This document shows positions 1-10,061 of a DNA stretch of 34,836 nt, in pieces. Numbering within the stretch: position 1 is the first letter of the stretch; every line of letters starts with the position of its first letter. The notes under the pieces are model-generated. The model saw only the letters and a list, made by a program, of their open reading frames with translations. It made no database searches and had not been told where the DNA came from. The position numbers and the translations under genes were made by a program. The DNA is from a virus. Location: positions 1 through 34,836 of IMG/VR virus record IMGVR_UViG_3300018083_000082; one strand, 5' to 3'.

Positions 1-202
1 CAACCTCGCGATTCGGATTGCGGCCCCGTTCGGACGGAAACTGGTGGACTACCCCGACGTGGTCGATCTGGCTCGGGAGTCGCTGGGTCTCATCAAACGG
101 GCGAACAACCGTCTGACGGATATTCCGACTGACGCGGCCGTGCTGACGAAGAATCTGCGAGGCCAATACAATATAAATTCTGGCGTCGGTGGGGGTAGCT
201 AA
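1..202 (+). CDS. Head-tail adaptor, P22 gp4-like, 3' end only
   Basis: This is the last 66 codons of a gene cut by the window edge, read from base 2 to the TAA at 200-202. The visible peptide starts NLAIRIAAPFG and continues through a helical stretch (DLARESLGLIKRANNR). It resembles the C-terminal helical part of the packaged-DNA-stabilisation gp4 family, which closes the portal after packaging and joins head to tail in P22-like phages. Its position directly upstream of tail genes fits that role. The stop codon overlaps the stop of the antisense HNH gene that follows. The family call rests on remembered motif similarity and gene order; the N-terminal part is not present to test it. Confidence 0.55.
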   Translation, partial: NLAIRIAAPFGRKLVDYPDVVDLARESLGLIKRANNRLTDIPTDAAVLTKNLRGQYNINSGVGGGS

Positions 203-702
203 AGCAGATGCTTCCACGTATTGCCCACGCAGATGTGCCAGACATTCGCGGGCTTGGTATTGAACCGAGTGGCTATCTCTGCGTAGGTCAATCCGTCCTT
301 ACGAAGGCGTCGGATCTGGATGACATCGTTGTCAGTGAGTTTGGCGAAGTGCGTTGTCTCGCCTCGATGTGGCGGCTTCCTTTTGAGTTCGCGCCACGAA
401 TGAGCATGGTTGTCCTTGCAAGTCAGATATTCCAAGTTGCTCGGCACATTGTTCGTGCGGCAACCATCGCGGTGATTGACCTGATAACCCTCCGGGCGAG
501 CGCCGATAAACATCATGGCGACGAGACGATGCACCATGAATTTACGCTGCACATGGTCGCGGGAGGACAACCTGACACGGTGATAACCGCCGCGGTCTGG
601 GTCCGGCTTCAGGATGTCATAGCGCAGACTGCGGACGCGGCCTTGGTCGCTGACTTCGTAAAGCCCTTCGTATCCGTCGATGGGTTTCCACGTCTCCTGC
701 AT
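199..702 (-). CDS. HNH homing endonuclease (NUMOD4 + HNH + HTH)
   Basis: This 167-residue freestanding homing endonuclease lies antisense to nearly everything else. Residues 4-50 match the NUMOD4 pattern (W-K-P-I-x-GYEGLYEVSDQGRVRS). Residues 56-94 carry the HNH core: H58, NHRDG at 76-80, and the SNLEYL segment. Residues 120-165 form a helix-turn-helix of the type ending IxxGxTWKHL, which would contact DNA. Such enzymes cut intron- or insert-free alleles and spread themselves by recombination. The gene sits exactly between the adaptor and tail genes, its stop overlapping the upstream gene's stop, so it disrupts neither. Its own Shine-Dalgarno is poor, and a 16-bp palindrome lies just upstream of its start. 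No intron boundary was seen. Confidence 0.9.
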   Translation of the reverse strand: MQETWKPIDGYEGLYEVSDQGRVRSLRYDILKPDPDRGGYHRVRLSSRDHVQRKFMVHRLVAMMFIGARPEGYQVNHRDGCRTNNVPSNLEYLTCKDNHAHSWRELKRKPPHRGETTHFAKLTDNDVIQIRRLRKDGLTYAEIATRFNTKPANVWHICVGNTWKHLL

Positions 703-2131: not shown

Positions 2132-3262
2132 ATGTCGGTGTATCCCGGCTTCATCGGCCCCACAAATAACCTCGCCAGTCCCTCGGTGGACAGCGAGGAG
2201 ACGCGCAACTGGTTCCTCGAGATGTCGGCACCAGGGACCGGCAAAGCGCCGGCATGGCTGGCCCCTGCGCCGGGATACGAGCCGTTCGTGGTGCTGAACG
2301 ACGGCCCCGTGCGCGCCCTGTTCTCGCAGGATGGGCGCTGTTTCGCGGTGGGAGCCACAGGCTTCTACGAGATCAACTCGACGCATACCGCCTCCCTGCT
2401 CGGCACGGTGGCCCTCGACGGCAGACCCGCGACCATCTGCTCCAACGGCTCCGCAGGCCATCAGTTGTTCATCACGTCAGGTGGGCTGGGCTATACGTTC
2501 GACCTCATCACCAACCTGCTGACACCGATCACCGATCCGAACTTCCCGAACCCCTGCACGATGGGCTGTTTCATCGACGGCTATTTCCTCGCGCTGCTGG
2601 GACAGAGCAATACGTTCTACTGGAGTTCGCTGGAAGACGGGACGACGTGGAACGCGCTCGATGTCGCGCAACTCTCGCAGAGTTCCGACTACATCCTGTC
2701 CATGTTCCCGGTCTACGGCCAGCTGTGGCTCCTCGGCTCGAAAACTGGCGTCGTCTGGGCCGATATTGGTGGGGCGACTATCTTCGCGCCGATTCCTGGT
2801 TCGCTGATGCAAGTTGGGACGCGTGCCGCCTTCTCGTTCTGGGTGGGCGACAACGCCTCGTTCTGGCTGGGCGGGAACGATCAGGGCGACGGCATCGTAT
2901 ACCGCGGCACGGGTGTGGGTTCAGCACCGACGCGCATCTCGACGCACGCCATCGAATATCGCTTGAGCCAGTCGAACCGACTCGAGAACTGCCTCGGGTG
3001 GGGATACCAGGAGAATGGGCACACCTTCTACAGCCTCCTTGTGCCGGATCTCGATACGACCTATACCTACGACGCGGCCACGCAGCAGTGGCACTCCAGA
3101 GATTTCTGGGATCCGGTCACCCTCGAGAACATTCCCGACGTGGTGCGCTGCCACACGTTCTGTTTCGGGCAGCATCTGGTCGGAGACCGGGAGAGCGGAG
3201 CGGTCTACGTGCAGGACTACAACCTCGCGACGACGACGCTCGTCCAGATGGGCGCGGGCTAA
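2132..3262 (+). CDS. Tail hub, P22 gp10-like N-terminal part (C-terminus missing)
   Basis: This 376-residue protein resembles the packaged-DNA-stabilisation (gp10) family of P22-like phages, the hub that plugs the tail below gp4. The N-terminus (YPGFIGPTNNLASPSVDSEE then TRNWFLEM) and repeated beta-strand blocks ending in CFGQHLVGDRESGAVY fit the propeller-like body of that family. Family members normally continue for another ~110 residues into a domain carrying an R-S-x-DGG-x-TW motif. Here the frame ends at TAA 3260-3262 and a GTG start follows with no gap. That missing domain appears at the C-termini of the next two genes. The chain is therefore probably one part of a split hub. The family assignment is from memory of the motif pattern. 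Confidence 0.62.
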   Translation: MSVYPGFIGPTNNLASPSVDSEETRNWFLEMSAPGTGKAPAWLAPAPGYEPFVVLNDGPVRALFSQDGRCFAVGATGFYEINSTHTASLLGTVALDGRPATICSNGSAGHQLFITSGGLGYTFDLITNLLTPITDPNFPNPCTMGCFIDGYFLALLGQSNTFYWSSLEDGTTWNALDVAQLSQSSDYILSMFPVYGQLWLLGSKTGVVWADIGGATIFAPIPGSLMQVGTRAAFSFWVGDNASFWLGGNDQGDGIVYRGTGVGSAPTRISTHAIEYRLSQSNRLENCLGWGYQENGHTFYSLLVPDLDTTYTYDAATQQWHSRDFWDPVTLENIPDVVRCHTFCFGQHLVGDRESGAVYVQDYNLATTTLVQMGAG

Positions 3263-5362
3263 GTGGCGACCATCCTCGTCCACGCTGGCGACGATCTGCA
3301 GGCCGCAATCAACGCGGCGGCGGGCGGGGATATTCTGGAACTCGACGCCTCCGCGACGTTCACCGGCAACTACACCCTCCCGATTCATAGCGGGGCGGCT
3401 ATCGTCATCCGTTCTGCTGGGAGTCTGCCGTCCGTAGGCGTCCGTGTCACGCCGGCGACCGCCGCGGCCTTCGCGAAGATTCAGCCGGACACGGGCGGTG
3501 GGCCAGCGTTCGCGACGATTCCGGCCTGTCAGAACTGGACGCTGCTCGGCCTCGAGTTACTTGCGACTCCAACCGGCGACAACGACATCCTCGTGCTCGG
3601 TGATGGCTCGAGCGCCCAGAACACGCTCGCGGATGTGCCGTCGAATCTCATCGTGGATCGGTGCTACATCCACGGCGATGCGACCTACGGGCAAAAGCGC
3701 GGCATCTCGCTGCAGTCCGGCGAGACGACCATCAAGAACTGCTACATCTCCGACATCAAGTTCACGGGACAGGACACGCAGGCGATAGCGGGCTGGAACG
3801 GGCCTGGACCGTGGACGATTGACAACAACTACCTGGAAGCCACAACCGAGAACTTCCTCGTCGGCGGGGCCACGATCCAGATTCCGGACCTGTTGCCCAC
3901 GGACATCACGTTCACGAACAACACCGTGACGAAGCAGCTGGCGTGGCGCGGGGCGGGTTACAACATCAAGAACCTGCTGGAACTGAAGACCGGCGTCAAC
4001 GTCCTGATCGACGGGAACACGTTCACCTACAACTGGGGCGGGGAAGGTCAGAGCGGCTATGCGCTCGTCTTCACGGTGCGGAACGAAGAAGGCGACAACA
4101 ACTGGGCGACGATCCAGAACGTCACCTGCACCAACAACACCATCGCGCACAGCGGCTCGTTTATCAACATCCTCGGGAAAGATGACAGGCCCGTTGGGTC
4201 AGTCACGATGAACAACCTGTTGATTCGTGACAATGTCGCCTACGACATCGACGGCGGGACGTGGAATGGCGCGGGGCACGTCGCACAGATTCACAGCGGG
4301 AACGCGATCACGCTCGACCACAACACGGTCATTAACAGCGGTGGGTATGCGTCCATCTATTTCGTGGATGCGCCCTGCTCCAACTTCACGCTGACGAACA
4401 ACATCTTCAACAACAAGAGTGCGGGCATCTTCAGCGGCAGCGATGACCCAGCCACGAATGGACTCGTTGGCACGGCGGCACTCGACGTGTTCGCGGCCCC
4501 GTATTCGATGCTGAAGAACGTCCTGATCGCTGGGTCAGAGACGGGCTACCCAGTCGGCAACTTCTTCCCGGCGACCGAAGCCGATGTGGAGTTCACGGAC
4601 GCCGCCACGAACGACTACGAACTGCTGGTCTCCTCGCCGTATCACAATGCCGCGACGGACGGCGATGACATTGGTTGCCGGTTCGGGGCTGCGCCTCCGG
4701 TGACGCTTCCCGGCGCGCCGACCACGCCGAGTCCTGCGGATGGGGCCATCGATGTCGCGCTCGACACGGACATGACCTGGGTGACTGGCGGGAACACGGA
4801 CACCTACAACGTCGCGTTTGGCTTCACCGTCTCGCCGCCGACCGTCTCGCTCGGGCAGGTTGGGACCAGTTATACGTTCCCCTCGCTGCTGATTGCGGGA
4901 CGCACTTACTACTGGCGCATCACGGCGAACAACGACGACGGCTCGACTGCGGGACCGCTCTGGAGCTTCACCACGCTCGCCGCGCCTCCGACACCGTCGC
5001 CGGTCTATCACCTCCGCGATGTTGTCCGTAGACGGCTGCGACGAGCGCCCATCGTGTGGGCAGAGAAGCAGGGCATCCAGACCCGTGTGCGTGTCGATCT
5101 CTTTGCCGTGGACGTGCAGCCTGGGGTCGGCACCGCCGGCTCACCCAATCCCGTGGTGATGGTGCGCGCCTCTCGAGATGGCGGTCGGACGTGGGGCAGC
5201 GAGCGGCAACTCTCGGCGGGCCGTGTCGGTCGCTATGTGCAGCGGCTGAACGCGTGGCGATGGGGCAGCGGCAGACAGTGGGTGTTTGAAATTAGCTGCA
5301 CCGATCCGGTGCTGTGGAATGTCGTCGGGGCGTATCTGGACGCAGAGGGCGGCACGTCGTGA
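3263..5362 (+). CDS. Beta-helix tailspike with FnIII-like and hub C-terminal domains
   Basis: This 699-residue protein starts at GTG immediately after the hub's TAA. Residues ~1-470 look like a right-handed parallel beta-helix: repeated short strands with Asn ladders (TIDNNYLEA, TFTNNTVTK, CTNNTIAH, TLTNNIFNN), as in pectate-lyase-type tailspikes that bind or cleave surface polysaccharide. Residues ~489-578 form a fibronectin type III-like domain (PSPADGAIDVALDTDMTW, YYWRITANN, LWSFTT). Residues 583-699 are a domain about 70% identical to the end of the next protein. That domain matches the expected C-terminus of gp10-type hubs (DGGRTWGSER, NAWRWGSGRQWVFE, YLDAEGGTS). The likely role is receptor binding, with the C-terminal domain docking the spike to the tail hub. 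Catalytic residues were not identified. Confidence 0.7.
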   Translation: MATILVHAGDDLQAAINAAAGGDILELDASATFTGNYTLPIHSGAAIVIRSAGSLPSVGVRVTPATAAAFAKIQPDTGGGPAFATIPACQNWTLLGLELLATPTGDNDILVLGDGSSAQNTLADVPSNLIVDRCYIHGDATYGQKRGISLQSGETTIKNCYISDIKFTGQDTQAIAGWNGPGPWTIDNNYLEATTENFLVGGATIQIPDLLPTDITFTNNTVTKQLAWRGAGYNIKNLLELKTGVNVLIDGNTFTYNWGGEGQSGYALVFTVRNEEGDNNWATIQNVTCTNNTIAHSGSFINILGKDDRPVGSVTMNNLLIRDNVAYDIDGGTWNGAGHVAQIHSGNAITLDHNTVINSGGYASIYFVDAPCSNFTLTNNIFNNKSAGIFSGSDDPATNGLVGTAALDVFAAPYSMLKNVLIAGSETGYPVGNFFPATEADVEFTDAATNDYELLVSSPYHNAATDGDDIGCRFGAAPPVTLPGAPTTPSPADGAIDVALDTDMTWVTGGNTDTYNVAFGFTVSPPTVSLGQVGTSYTFPSLLIAGRTYYWRITANNDDGSTAGPLWSFTTLAAPPTPSPVYHLRDVVRRRLRRAPIVWAEKQGIQTRVRVDLFAVDVQPGVGTAGSPNPVVMVRASRDGGRTWGSERQLSAGRVGRYVQRLNAWRWGSGRQWVFEISCTDPVLWNVVGAYLDAEGGTS
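5009..5359 (+). repeat. First copy of the duplicated hub C-terminal domain
   Basis: This stretch encodes residues 583-699 of the beta-helix protein. By my residue-by-residue count, about 83 of 118 positions match the copy at 6598-6951. Shared blocks include VVRRRLRRAPIVW, DGG-x-TW, NAWRWGSGR and CTDPV. The nucleotide sequences have diverged more at third positions, so the duplication is not recent. Confidence 0.85.
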
Positions 5363-6954
5363 GAGTCTGCGTGATGACCTTTCAGCCTCCCGCCATTGGG
5401 GCACCGCAGACGCAGACAATTACCGGTGTGGCGGATGAAGACGGTCCCTTTGTTGGGACGTGGTTTGTGTTTCAAAGCGCCTACGCCGCGCTTGATACGG
5501 TCACGTCTGGGCTATTCCCGATCAACGCCTACATGGATGGGCGTGGACTGGCGTTCGGGGCACTCTTCGCGGGTGGTGCTGGTGTCGCGAATGTGACGGC
5601 CGATGTGTTTCTCGCTGGTGTTAAAGATTCTGCGAGTATGCATAGCGCGGCGTATTCGGTGACGGACTTTAACGCGCAACTCTCCTTTGGAGGGGCAGGC
5701 TGGCGGCAGGCGTATGTCTCCGCTGTGGCCTCCGGGACATTCGACATCACGTATGACCAGAATGATCGCACGGGGGATACGGTCCTCTGCACGGTCTTTG
5801 GTGGTGACGATCTACAGTTTACGGAGATCGTGACCCCTAGCACTGGTTCCCATGCGACCGTCGCGAAGCCACAAGGGGTGATCGCCTTCGGCGTTGCCGC
5901 GCTGGACACGACACGCGCCGCGCAGACTGGCACGGGCGGTGAGAGCGTCAACCGGGGCTGGGATACGCGCGAGGGGAACCGAGGCAGCAGTTATGTCGCG
6001 GTCCCGTTCGGGCAGAACAACAACGATACCGCGCAGTATACCGACACGATCTTTGGGCAAGGTGGAGCGGGGAGTGTCCAGGTCAGCGGGTGGGGCGATA
6101 CGGGTATCGTCATCACGAATACCGGCGGCGGCAGTCCGATGTTGGCTGTCTGTGGCGATGATATTCGCACGGCGGCGGGGATTCTGACGCAGCCGGTCTC
6201 GACTGGAGCGCAACCGTTCTCAACGGGGATCAACGCGCGATGGATCTGTTTTATCAGTAACGGCTATCCCGCCGATTCCGGCCTACAGACGGTCACCGCG
6301 GAGACCGCGGTTGGATGGGGCACGAACATCCTGACGCAAGTGGGCTTCTGGACCGCAGAGAATGGCAACGCCAACGCCGCACATGGGGCGCGCTATCTGA
6401 GCGATTCGACCGTGCTGCGGTTCGGTGTGCCGAATACGACCTCCACCACGTTCAATTCCGTGGCGAGTCTCACCGCGCTGAATGACGATGGCACCGCGGA
6501 AATTGATTGGAGCAGTGTCGATGGCACCCAGCGACAGATCCTCTGGTTTGCCATCGGCACGGGCACAGAACCGCCGCCGCCGCCTCCCGTTCCTGTGTTT
6601 CGGACGCGCGAGGTGGTGCGGCGTCGGCTCCGTCGCGCGCCGATTGTCTGGAGCGAGAAGAACGGACTCCAGACTCGCGTCCGCATCAACCTCTTCGCGG
6701 TGGATATGCAGCCGGGAGTTGGGACCGTCGATACGCCGAATCCCTTGGTTATGATCCGCGCGAGTAAGGACGGCGGCTTCACCTGGAGCAATGAACGTCG
6801 CGTCTCGGCAGGGCGCATCGGAGAGTATTTCGAGCGCATCAACGCGTGGCGGTGGGGAAGCGGGCGGGAGTGGGTTTTCGAGGTTGCCTGCACCGATCCG
6901 GTGACTTGGAACCTCGTAAATTGCTACTTAGACGCTGAGCCGGGCGAGTCATAG
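5359..6954 (+). CDS. Second tail protein carrying the hub C-terminal domain
   Basis: This protein is about 531 residues long. I place the start at GTG 5359, which overlaps the previous TGA and has AGAGGG nine bases upstream; ATG 5374 is the alternative. The first ~400 residues are beta-rich, Gly/Thr-rich and without a recognised family (for example GDTVLCTVFGGDD, GWDTREGNRGSSYVAVPFG). A polyproline linker (PPPPPPVPVF) then leads into a 118-residue C-terminal domain homologous to that of the upstream spike, with DGGFTWSNERR and WVFEVACTDPV. The N-terminal part is probably an alternative receptor-binding or tip module held by the shared anchor. Function beyond virion attachment is inferred. Confidence 0.72.
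   Translation: MRVCVMTFQPPAIGAPQTQTITGVADEDGPFVGTWFVFQSAYAALDTVTSGLFPINAYMDGRGLAFGALFAGGAGVANVTADVFLAGVKDSASMHSAAYSVTDFNAQLSFGGAGWRQAYVSAVASGTFDITYDQNDRTGDTVLCTVFGGDDLQFTEIVTPSTGSHATVAKPQGVIAFGVAALDTTRAAQTGTGGESVNRGWDTREGNRGSSYVAVPFGQNNNDTAQYTDTIFGQGGAGSVQVSGWGDTGIVITNTGGGSPMLAVCGDDIRTAAGILTQPVSTGAQPFSTGINARWICFISNGYPADSGLQTVTAETAVGWGTNILTQVGFWTAENGNANAAHGARYLSDSTVLRFGVPNTTSTTFNSVASLTALNDDGTAEIDWSSVDGTQRQILWFAIGTGTEPPPPPPVPVFRTREVVRRRLRRAPIVWSEKNGLQTRVRINLFAVDMQPGVGTVDTPNPLVMIRASKDGGFTWSNERRVSAGRIGEYFERINAWRWGSGREWVFEVACTDPVTWNLVNCYLDAEPGES
6598..6951 (+). repeat. Second copy of the duplicated hub C-terminal domain
   Basis: This stretch encodes the last 118 residues of the preceding protein, separated from its N-terminal part by a six-proline linker. 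It matches the 5009-5359 copy at about 70% of residues, including the DGG-x-TW and GSGR-x-WVFE motifs. See the first copy for the comparison. Confidence 0.85.
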
Positions 6955-7812
6955 ATGCCGACAAATTATCCGCCGCTGAACAACCTGCCACTGAACAAAG
7001 ACGGCTCGTGGACCGTGCCGTGGGTGATGTATTTCGCCGAGTTGTTCCAAGAAGGCAGCGGGACGGCGCCAGCGGATGCGGAATACCTCGTCGGAGTGGC
7101 GAACGGCGATCTGCCTAATGAGCGGGTTGTCACGAACAGCAACAGCAACGTCTGGAACCTCGCCGTAGCGGGGCAGGCGGCGGTCTCTCGAGCGGCCCTC
7201 TCTGGTGACATCACAGCGCCGTTCGATAGCAACGTCACGACGCTCTCCACGACGGGGGTGACCCCCGGCACCTACGGCGACAGCACCCATGTCGGGCGGT
7301 TTACGGTCGATGCGAAAGGGCGCTTGTCCTTCGCGGCGGATGTCGCGATTGCCGCCACTGGAACGGTGACGACAACTGGATCGCCGGTCAGCGGGAACCT
7401 GACGAAATTCTCTGGCGCGACGAGTATTACGAACGGAGATCTGACGGGTGATGTCACTACGTCAGGGACACTCGCCACGGCGCTCTCCACGACCGGCGTG
7501 GTGGCGGGTAGTTACACCAACACCGACCTCACGGTAGACGCCAAGGGGCGCATCACTGCGGCGTCAAACGGGACGAGTAGCAGCAGTGGCGGTGCGACCG
7601 TCATTGGCCTGCATCGTCTGGTCGGGGATGGGGCAACGATGACGTTTTATCTCCCCGATCTCGCCGAATACGTAGTGGATGTGAGCGACGCGGGGCTTAC
7701 AGTAGACCCAGCCATTTACAGCCTAGCGAGTGCGCGCGATTCCGTGATCTTTGCGACCGCGCCGACCGCTGCACATGTGTTGACGTTTGAATACGTCGAA
7801 GCGACAAGCTAA
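6955..7812 (+). CDS. Tail fibre protein with fibre repeats
   Basis: This 285-residue protein has an N-terminal segment (PPLNNLPLNKDGSWTVPW) of the type that anchors fibres to phage tails. Two fibre repeats follow at about residues 82-130 and 163-206, each with the pattern SGD(I/V)T...LSTTGV...Y...TVDAKGR(L/I)..A. The short C-terminal domain (~220-285) is beta-rich and may be a tip or trimerisation unit. The repeats recur in the next gene, which suggests that the two fibres share an ancestor or interact. ATG 6955 directly follows the preceding TAG, implying coupling. The protein probably forms a trimeric fibre. Confidence 0.75.
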   Translation: MPTNYPPLNNLPLNKDGSWTVPWVMYFAELFQEGSGTAPADAEYLVGVANGDLPNERVVTNSNSNVWNLAVAGQAAVSRAALSGDITAPFDSNVTTLSTTGVTPGTYGDSTHVGRFTVDAKGRLSFAADVAIAATGTVTTTGSPVSGNLTKFSGATSITNGDLTGDVTTSGTLATALSTTGVVAGSYTNTDLTVDAKGRITAASNGTSSSSGGATVIGLHRLVGDGATMTFYLPDLAEYVVDVSDAGLTVDPAIYSLASARDSVIFATAPTAAHVLTFEYVEATS

Positions 7813-8886
7813 ATGCCGAATACCGCCCTGAATCGCACGACGCAAGTCCTGATGACGAACAAGTCGGGCGGGAACCTCGCCTACGGCGATGTGGTCATCT
7901 GGGACAACACGAACGCGAGCAGTTTTACGACCACGACCACAGCTGGCCTCTCGACGCGCGGGCTAGGTGTGATTCTCGAGCCGGGCGGTATTGCGAACAA
8001 CGCGACGGGGATGATTGCCGTGGGGGGCTGGGTGCCACGGGTCAATCTGAACACGGCGTCCGCTGTGGGCCAGTTCATCAAGTCGCATACCGTCGCTGGG
8101 CAGGGCACGCCCCATGCCTCACCCCAGGTCGAGGGCGACTTCGCGGTGGCGATGGATGCGAGCACCACCCCGAGTGCGACGCTCTTTGGGAACCCGAACG
8201 CGCCCATTGGGGCTGGCACAGTCACGAATTCCGGCACGCTGACCTCGGGGCAATTGATTGCGGGCGCTGGGACGACCGTGGTGGCGGTCACGAATCTGAC
8301 GGGGGATGTCACCACGTCGGGCGGCGTGGCGACGACGCTGGCGAATACCGCCGTGACGCCTGCGTCTTATACCAACACGAATTTGACGGTGGACAGTAAA
8401 GGTCGGATCACATCGGCGTCGAACGGGTCTGGCGGATCCAGCACGGTGGTGCAGATCAAGAACACCCAGACTGGCGCCGTCGCGAGTGGGTCCACCGCGA
8501 TGCCGTTCGATGACACGATCCCCCAGAGCGGTGAGGGGGATGAATACATGACGCTGGCGATTACGCCGACGAGTTCCAGTAATAAACTGCGAATCACGGT
8601 CAACTATTTCGCGACGGCGACCGGCACGCCGTGGATTATGTGCGCGTTGTTTCAGGATTCAGGCAACAACGCCCTCGCGGCCACGGCGCGGTTCAACAAC
8701 ACCTCCACAGCCGGCGGTGAGACCACACTGATTCACACCATGACAGCCGGGACGACCTCGGCGACGACGTTCAAGGTGCGGCTTGGACCCGGATCGGGCA
8801 CGCTGACGTTCAATGGGCAGAGTGGTGGGCGTATCTTTGGCGGTGTGATGGCCTCGAGCATCACGATTGAGGAATACATCCCATGA
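7813..8886 (+). CDS. Tail fibre / receptor-binding protein
   Basis: In this 357-residue protein, residues 1-125 form a beta-rich domain (GDVVIWDNTNASSF, GLGVILEPGGIANNATGM) that often sits near the start of phage fibres. Residues 161-205 are a fibre repeat (LTGDVTTSGGVATTLANTA, then TVDSKGRITSASNG) like those in the preceding gene. Residues ~212-357 resemble a compact jelly-roll tip (AITPTSSSNKLRITVNYFA, VRLGPGSGTLTFNG), typical of fibre C-termini that bind the host surface. Its stop overlaps the start of a 19-codon ORF. The family class is clear but receptor and fold details are inferred. Confidence 0.75.
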   Translation: MPNTALNRTTQVLMTNKSGGNLAYGDVVIWDNTNASSFTTTTTAGLSTRGLGVILEPGGIANNATGMIAVGGWVPRVNLNTASAVGQFIKSHTVAGQGTPHASPQVEGDFAVAMDASTTPSATLFGNPNAPIGAGTVTNSGTLTSGQLIAGAGTTVVAVTNLTGDVTTSGGVATTLANTAVTPASYTNTNLTVDSKGRITSASNGSGGSSTVVQIKNTQTGAVASGSTAMPFDDTIPQSGEGDEYMTLAITPTSSSNKLRITVNYFATATGTPWIMCALFQDSGNNALAATARFNNTSTAGGETTLIHTMTAGTTSATTFKVRLGPGSGTLTFNGQSGGRIFGGVMASSITIEEYIP

Positions 8887-8942
8887 AGTTCCCGCGCTGG
8901 ACGTTTGCCTTCTGGATGGCCTTCTCCCACTGGTATCGGTAG
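8883..8942 (+). CDS. Possible 19-residue aromatic peptide
   Basis: The ORF starts in an ATGA overlap with the fibre stop and encodes MKFPRWTFAFWMAFSHWYR, unusually rich in Trp and Phe with basic ends. It fills the gap before the first ejection protein, leaving six bases. It could be a real membrane-active micropeptide or a coupling ORF that delivers ribosomes to 8949, which has no clear Shine-Dalgarno. There is no homology evidence. Confidence 0.3.
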   Translation: MKFPRWTFAFWMAFSHWYR

Positions 8943-8948
8943 AAACGT

Positions 8949-10061
8949 ATGGCTAAGCAATTCGATCCCTCGCAACTCTCCCCGGCTGACCAAGCGGCGT
9001 TTGCCCAATGGCAGCAGCAACTGCAGCAATATGTCGCGCAGAACGGTGGAGGCGTGCCTGCACCGGTCACCTATGCGCTTGCTAAGCCTGACTATGTCCA
9101 GAGCCATCCTGAACTCAAGGAAGGCTACGACATCGTATCTGGTGCGAATCTGCCGCCAACCGTGAAGGCTGCGCTGCAGGGCTATCACCCGACATGGGGC
9201 AAGGCGGGAGAACCCACCAGCGCGAACATGACGAAGGACAAGGGTCTCTTCGGCAACTGGGAGACGTGGCTGCAGTTGGGCCTCGGCGCTGGTGTCGCGT
9301 CCTACGTCGCGCCGGCCATAGCGGCATCGGCAGGAGGGACTGCGGCCACAGGTAGCGCCGCTGGTGGCGCGACGGCGGGAACCGCAGGGGCTGGAACGGC
9401 AGCAGGGGCCACGTCGGCCTACGGACCTCTGGCTGGCGGCTACGGCCTCGCCACAACAGAAGCTGCAGTTCCGGCCTCACTCGCGGCTGAAGGCGGCACC
9501 GCAGCGGCGGCTGCGGCCAATCCATCCATCTGGGATAAGATTTTCGGCAAGTCCACCGCCGACAAGGTGATGTCCGGTCTCGGCATGGCCGGCGGGCTGG
9601 CTGGCAGTCTCATCCAGTCGAACCAAGCCGATAAAGCCACGAAGGCGCAGCAGGAAGCCGCCGCGAAGGCGCTGGAACTCCAGAGCAACATCTACCAGCA
9701 GCAGCGGGCCGATCTCGCGCCCTACCGGCAGGCAGGAGCCTCGTCGTTGTCGGCGCTGACGTATGGCCTCGGGCTGGACCCATCGAAGACTGCGGATACC
9801 ACGACGCCGTATTTCAACCAGCAGGCGCAAGCGCAGAACAACGCCGTGCCGCAGAACGCGCAGCGGAATCCTGGCAGTCCGACGACACAGCCGATTCCGG
9901 CAGGGAACTACACCGGAGGGCAAGCCGTGCCGCGTGTCTCGTCGCTGGCTCCGACAGGGCAGGATGGCACCGTCGCGATGATGTCACCGGATGGACGGCA
10001 GGCTCGCGTGCCGCAGAACCAAGTGCAAGCCGCGCTCGCCGCGGGTGGAAGGTTGGCGTAG
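8949..10061 (+). CDS. DNA ejection / internal virion protein (Ala/Gly-rich)
   Basis: This 370-residue protein has a Gln-rich N-terminus (QWQQQLQQYVAQ). A long small-residue hydrophobic region follows at ~111-155 (LGLGAGVASYVAPAIAAS), then a helical region with NQADKATKAQQEAAAKALEL and the motif YQQQRADLAPYRQAGASSL. That last motif recurs in DNA-transfer proteins of short-tailed phages (the P22 gp7/gp16/gp20 type), which are packed in the head and help form a channel for DNA entry. It heads a block of four such genes. The start at ATG 8949 lacks a good Shine-Dalgarno; coupling through the 8883 ORF may help. Confidence 0.65.
   Translation: MAKQFDPSQLSPADQAAFAQWQQQLQQYVAQNGGGVPAPVTYALAKPDYVQSHPELKEGYDIVSGANLPPTVKAALQGYHPTWGKAGEPTSANMTKDKGLFGNWETWLQLGLGAGVASYVAPAIAASAGGTAATGSAAGGATAGTAGAGTAAGATSAYGPLAGGYGLATTEAAVPASLAAEGGTAAAAAANPSIWDKIFGKSTADKVMSGLGMAGGLAGSLIQSNQADKATKAQQEAAAKALELQSNIYQQQRADLAPYRQAGASSLSALTYGLGLDPSKTADTTTPYFNQQAQAQNNAVPQNAQRNPGSPTTQPIPAGNYTGGQAVPRVSSLAPTGQDGTVAMMSPDGRQARVPQNQVQAALAAGGRLA

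Follow-up and report, generated by a model that had tools for sequence, protein, structure and literature searches.

We found that a gp10-type tail hub is probably coded as two chains in the window, the whole 34,836-nucleotide stretch of DNA that was analysed, from an uncultured short-tailed phage, and that the putative receptor-binding proteins probably attach by supplying the hub platform in trans. In known short-tailed phages, spikes and fibres attach via N-terminal adapter domains to a one-chain hub. What appears to be new here, as read from the sequences, is that the hub was opened at the T7 fibre-dock position and its last domain was handed to exchangeable proteins. No description of such a two-gene hub arrangement was found in the open-licence literature. 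The features concerned are the following.

2132..3262, plus strand: hub body, 376 aa; comprises the beta-propeller and N-terminal platform strands of a gp10-type hub but lacks the C-terminal half of the platform
3260..3265, plus strand: hub stop and spike start; TAA (3260-3262), zero gap, GTG at 3263, same frame
3263..5008, plus strand: spike module; probable right-handed beta-helix, weak DUF5123 match
about 4712-4978, plus strand: probable fibronectin-III-like domain, read from sequence, after the beta-helix
5009..5362, plus strand: platform C-terminal half, copy 1, at the end of the spike gene; phrog_578 372-472, E 1e-10
5359..6597, plus strand: second module, probable receptor-binding body; its GTG start overlaps the spike stop
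6598..6954, plus strand: platform C-terminal half, copy 2, at the end of the 5359-6954 protein; phrog_578 382-473, E 7e-11

The hub gene stops before the C-terminal platform half

The hub open reading frame at 2132-3262 was matched by phrog_578, the profile of P22-gp10-type hubs (head closure Hc3, packaged-DNA stabilization protein), over positions 13-362 of 486 with an E value of 5e-62, and the hub body also matched PDB entries 7eeq and 9vyg in a sequence search. An alignment of 15 hubs showed that the window hub stops at the linker, whereas the intact hubs run on into the C-terminal domain. The first-pass annotation had claimed that the hub ends at the entry to the gp10-type C-terminal domain and that the GTG start of the spike follows the hub stop with zero gap; the end of the profile match, the 15-hub alignment and the in-frame TAA-GTG junction agree with both claims. 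The window hub does not have the C-terminal platform domain in the same chain, and two downstream proteins bear the platform half. The comparison with the gp10 family, which the first-pass annotation had proposed as a check, split phrog_578 among three proteins, namely the hub and the two downstream C-termini, and the hub did not turn out to be a complete family member, the remainder of phrog_578 being located downstream.

In T7, the fibre dock is located on the outer surface, between propeller and platform (PMC6702177); in SU10, both connections of the chain to the platform are at blade 1 of the propeller, and the fibre-dock loop is on this blade as well (PMC9509320). The split point of the window hub therefore is where related tails hold their fibres. 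A fibre-dock domain of the T7 gp12 type was not found between propeller and platform in the window, where the hub chain stops at this place and a new gene begins.

The identical TAA-GTG junction was present in two related genomes, L003 and L004, and most relatives had other stop/start overlaps, such as TGATG. Since hub and spike share a frame with a single TAA between them in these three genomes, and since single-chain hubs with an insertion do exist, the hub stop could be read through at times to give a functional single hub-spike-platform chain, like the Gluconacetobacter hubs described below. We consider this very unlikely, as in most split relatives the next gene lies in another frame (TGATG-type overlap) or at least one gene further on, and the 5359-6954 protein cannot be joined in this way.

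An HNH endonuclease gene (199-702, minus strand; phrog_59, E 6e-47) lies among the structural genes of the window. A similar minus-strand open reading frame lies between structural genes in the relative L005 (1635-2141).

Two downstream proteins terminate in the platform half of the hub

The two copies of the platform half were 70% identical over 105 aa (E 2e-51), and a scan of the whole record found exactly two copies. The earlier claim of a domain about 70% identical at the ends of the next two proteins thus held, both copies matching the end of phrog_578. An unrelated family, such as a fibre chaperone, had been named as the outcome that would count against a hub origin; the domain proved to be the hub's own phrog_578 C-terminus. 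In a profile comparison, the domain matched the C-terminal ends of the Pan3 and Pam1 hubs of known structure. Among GenBank phages, only the hub gene bore the domain; this gene was named stabilization protein, head closure Hc3 or tail tubular protein B, or was a hypothetical gene at the hub's place. A protein with a C-terminal platform domain is very likely a tail part, even if the rest of it matches nothing, which could aid annotation.

The DGGxTW motif of the platform domain has the Asp-box form, SxDxGxTW, common to sialidases. A sialidase-like origin of the domain was rejected, because sialidases match the short Asp-box stretch alone, whereas hubs match about 90 positions. Platform copies borne in trans nearly always terminate in Gly-x-Ser at the extreme C-terminus (5351-5359 and 6943-6951 in the window, and in aligned relatives). 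Only the last 66 of the 595 positions of phrog_19101, an unannotated phage family, matched the platform half; this family may be an insert hub or may likewise carry the platform in trans.

The spike module was seen only in the window, L003 and L004, and had no match among GenBank phages. Comparison of the spike with head-binding families gave no match at E values up to 1, and the chain starts directly with the module. Like the P22 gp9-type tailspikes, the spike would place a beta-helix module, here a probable one, on a short tail; P22 gp9, however, attaches via an N-terminal head-binding domain, whereas in the window spike the module comes first and attachment would be by the C-terminus. As judged by its attachment end, which was read from sequence, the spike is not a gp9-type tailspike.

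The GTG start of the second protein at 5359 is plausible, since the residues after it align with relatives. Thirteen non-redundant relatives of the second module were found, spread over the clade of split hubs, and all 13 had the platform domain. A fold search with a model of the 5359-6954 protein matched its platform to P22 gp10 residues 374-472 (2.2 A over 96 residues), and weaker matches were to T7 gp12 672-790 (Z about 6) and SU10 901-1004 (Z about 7). This search gave platform matches only and nothing convincing for the module.

Comparison of the window with L003 and L004, among which synonymous sites are partly saturated, gave dN/dS values of 0.04-0.10 for the hub, 0.04-0.06 for platform copy 1, 0.04-0.12 for platform copy 2, 0.09-0.15 for the spike module and 0.39-0.56 for the fast-evolving second module. 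These values indicate that both platform copies are under purifying selection.

Six sockets cannot take six copies of each protein, and L005 has the second type only, both of which would fit a virion that uses just one downstream protein, the other being an outgoing recent duplicate or an alternative for another setting. Such single use appears quite unlikely, given that both domains are under purifying selection, that three diverged genomes retain both genes and that L041/L048 have a separate pair, from their own duplication of the platform domain.

The platform domain is present either in the hub chain or downstream

IMG/VR was scanned twice, once with an alignment of the domain and once with an alignment of the hub body made without the domain. 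Classification by HMM yielded 126 non-redundant hubs, each more than 3% different. The domain was in cis in 73 of them and in a downstream chain in 45; one hub (L068) was cut inside the domain, and seven ran off the contig or locus. Thus, the domain was absent in none of the 119 hubs with enough sequence (73 fused and 46 in pieces), and no spare copy of it was seen at the loci of the 73 fused hubs. The non-redundant hubs represented in the body-based scan comprised 16 fused and 31 separate ones. Apparent loss of the domain in L118, L121 and L163 was counted as no data, because the genes after the hub run off the sequence. L050 and L054, in which the cut falls further upstream, at profile position 322 in the body, were left out of the support for the window's type of split.

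Other arrangements were also observed. The hub of L033 consists of the body plus an insertion of ~700 aa, and its domain is a separate protein of 127 aa, and in L009 and L010, as in L068, the cut lies inside the domain. L131 (8023-9776) has a split hub locus with two platform-bearing open reading frames ~2 kb downstream of the hub. Six fused hubs (L091, L093, L095, L097, L215 and L217) contain an extra ~70-220 aa in the propeller after profile position ~125-140, insertions that possibly resemble the SU10 nozzle domains between blades.

Some bacterial prophage hubs (L194, L200 and L201) are truly broken, and the split in the window might likewise be put down to a sequencing error or a decayed hub. 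This explanation was excluded by the recurrence of the same split point in ~40 contigs and, in view of the stop/start overlaps and the purifying selection as well, we give it almost no credence.

An old split, with the spike as the probable newcomer

In a tree of hub bodies, the window fell in a clade of 48 rows (SH-aLRT 94). Forty of these were separated hubs, seven had no data, and the fused hub L173 stood at the base on a long branch. Since the split is common to this clade of ~40 hubs, it did not originate in this phage. The tree required at least six changes between the fused and unfused states, of which four were imposed by branches with strong support, indicating that separation arose outside the window clade too. 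The clade of split-hub phages has no cultured member. One scan of bacterial genomes for relatives found none, and another found 43 hubs, nearly all fused, which stand outside the tree.

Modules ahead of the domain were mostly unrelated between lineages; one contained a lectin-like Laminin_G_3 domain, and others contained DUF11- or DUF5979-like pieces. Distances between hubs correlated with those between domains at r 0.71, a value due partly to shared ancestry, and with those between modules at 0.33; among distant pairs the correlations were 0.35 and 0.07, respectively. Within the split clade, modules have been exchanged, whereas the domain follows the hub.

The next relative, L005 (61% hub identity), has the hub followed by the 5359-6954 type alone. 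The spike, therefore, was probably the later arrival, together with a domain copy, an order also suggested by the 13 clade-wide members of the second type versus the spike in three genomes only. The 5359-6954 type is thus probably the older occupant and the beta-helix spike the newcomer, although horizontal exchange could blur the order of arrival. This reverses the order in the first-pass annotation, which had put the spike first and the second protein later. Its proposal that a module was inserted between the hub body and an anchor agrees with the split hub and with the domain on two downstream proteins, but the split proved to be old and clade-wide rather than an event in this lineage.

The joined chains model as one hub

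For modelling by AlphaFold2, the hub stop was replaced by Q so that hub and spike gave a single chain, and 46 fused hubs were included in the input alignment, in which body and domain align and the spike module forms a clean insertion. The pLDDT was about 90 for the body and about 80-90 for the domain, and the model did not resolve the spike module. Body and domain together superposed on the Pan3 hub (Z 37.7, 1.9 A, 427 residues) and on P22 gp10 (8eap; Z 36.2, 2.2 A, 446 residues), and the joined model also superposed on the Sf6 and Pam1 hubs. The propeller and platform fold of P22 gp10 was obtained only with the second chain joined. For the spike copy, then, the anticipated folding of the domain onto the hub body was seen, in an artificially joined chain; as the chain was joined and 46 fused homologues were in the alignment, the model tests compatibility, not binding in trans. 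In the model, the C-terminal domain of the spike is the hub platform and completes the fold of the hub body. Hence the window system is a gp10-type hub by sequence and, given both chains, by fold.

Because contact in trans rests on the joined-chain model, and because the sialidase-like Asp-box motif is also found in unrelated proteins, the platform domain might have been recruited for folding or attachment and bind at another site, for instance to the adaptor alone, with the short hub working without a platform. We regard this as unlikely: shortened hubs and a downstream domain are perfectly complementary, the domain tracks the hub and not the module, and the joined model rebuilds an intact hub. 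The term anchor, used for the domain in the first-pass annotation, is apt in that the domain is most likely the attachment module of both proteins, but the domain is a hub platform with its own structural role and not a dedicated anchor.

Proposed organization of a two-chain hub

In the favoured reading, that of a two-chain hub, the beta-propeller and the N-terminal strands would come from the hub gene, the C-terminal half of the platform domain would form the end of each downstream protein, and the two chains would combine into one complete hub protomer. By analogy with P22, T7 and SU10, the hub would be a hexamer seated on the adaptor ring and closing the DNA channel, with six sockets, each filled by either downstream protein. 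In T7, the platform binds the adaptor, and the first 45 residues of the chain contribute strands to the platform barrel (PMC6702177); the window platform would contact the adaptor ring in the manner of T7 and SU10. The modules would project outward where T7 has its fibre dock and would bind the host surface or cleave it, a role in receptor binding suggested by the variety of the modules only. New modules would arrive by recombination ahead of the conserved platform, and duplication of the platform in the window lineage would have allowed two modules to be carried.

For the split clade as a whole, we lean toward the view that receptor-binding proteins are hub halves giving the platform in trans to six sockets with interchangeable or mixed modules, and that the tail cannot be finished without one. 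The last point would follow because the hub is incomplete without the platform. If true, host recognition would be coupled directly to the DNA-retaining channel, the swapping of receptor-binding genes behind a constant plug would be explained, and sets of six receptor-binding proteins, possibly mixed, would be predicted rather than six trimers.

Comparison with known hubs and nozzles

The hubs of P22 (gp10), Sf6 (gp8), Pan3 and Pam1 resemble the window system in having a body and a C-terminal domain by profile, and the joined window chains share their fold over nearly the whole chain. In these hubs, however, propeller and platform follow each other directly in a single chain, whereas in the window other proteins bear the last domain. 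T7 gp12 and SU10 gp17 also consist of propeller and platform, and their fibres sit at the propeller-platform junction or at blade 1. They dock separate trimeric fibres, whereas in the window the putative receptor-binding chain itself contains the platform. The window system would thus work like a nozzle with fibres, but through a two-chain hub.

A large module between hub body and platform end was also found in prophages. In Gluconacetobacter prophages (L196-L199, L202 and L210; about 5995-9615), the hub is one chain of 1204-1209 aa whose platform is interrupted by an insertion of ~720 aa. The hub of an Acinetobacter halotolerans prophage (L219, 5974-8199) has 670 aa, and the second platform half is encoded after it by a 66-aa gene of its own; this is a split hub in a cultured strain. 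Unlike in the window, the insertion in these hubs lies inside the platform domain, and the Gluconacetobacter hubs are one polypeptide. As parallels, which do not imply ancestry to the window hub, they show that both insertion and separation occur. In G. liquefaciens (L200), the same insert-hub gene is broken into two open reading frames, and the prophage hubs of L194 (Dyella) and L201 (Rhodanobacter) are in pieces, probably in decaying prophages.
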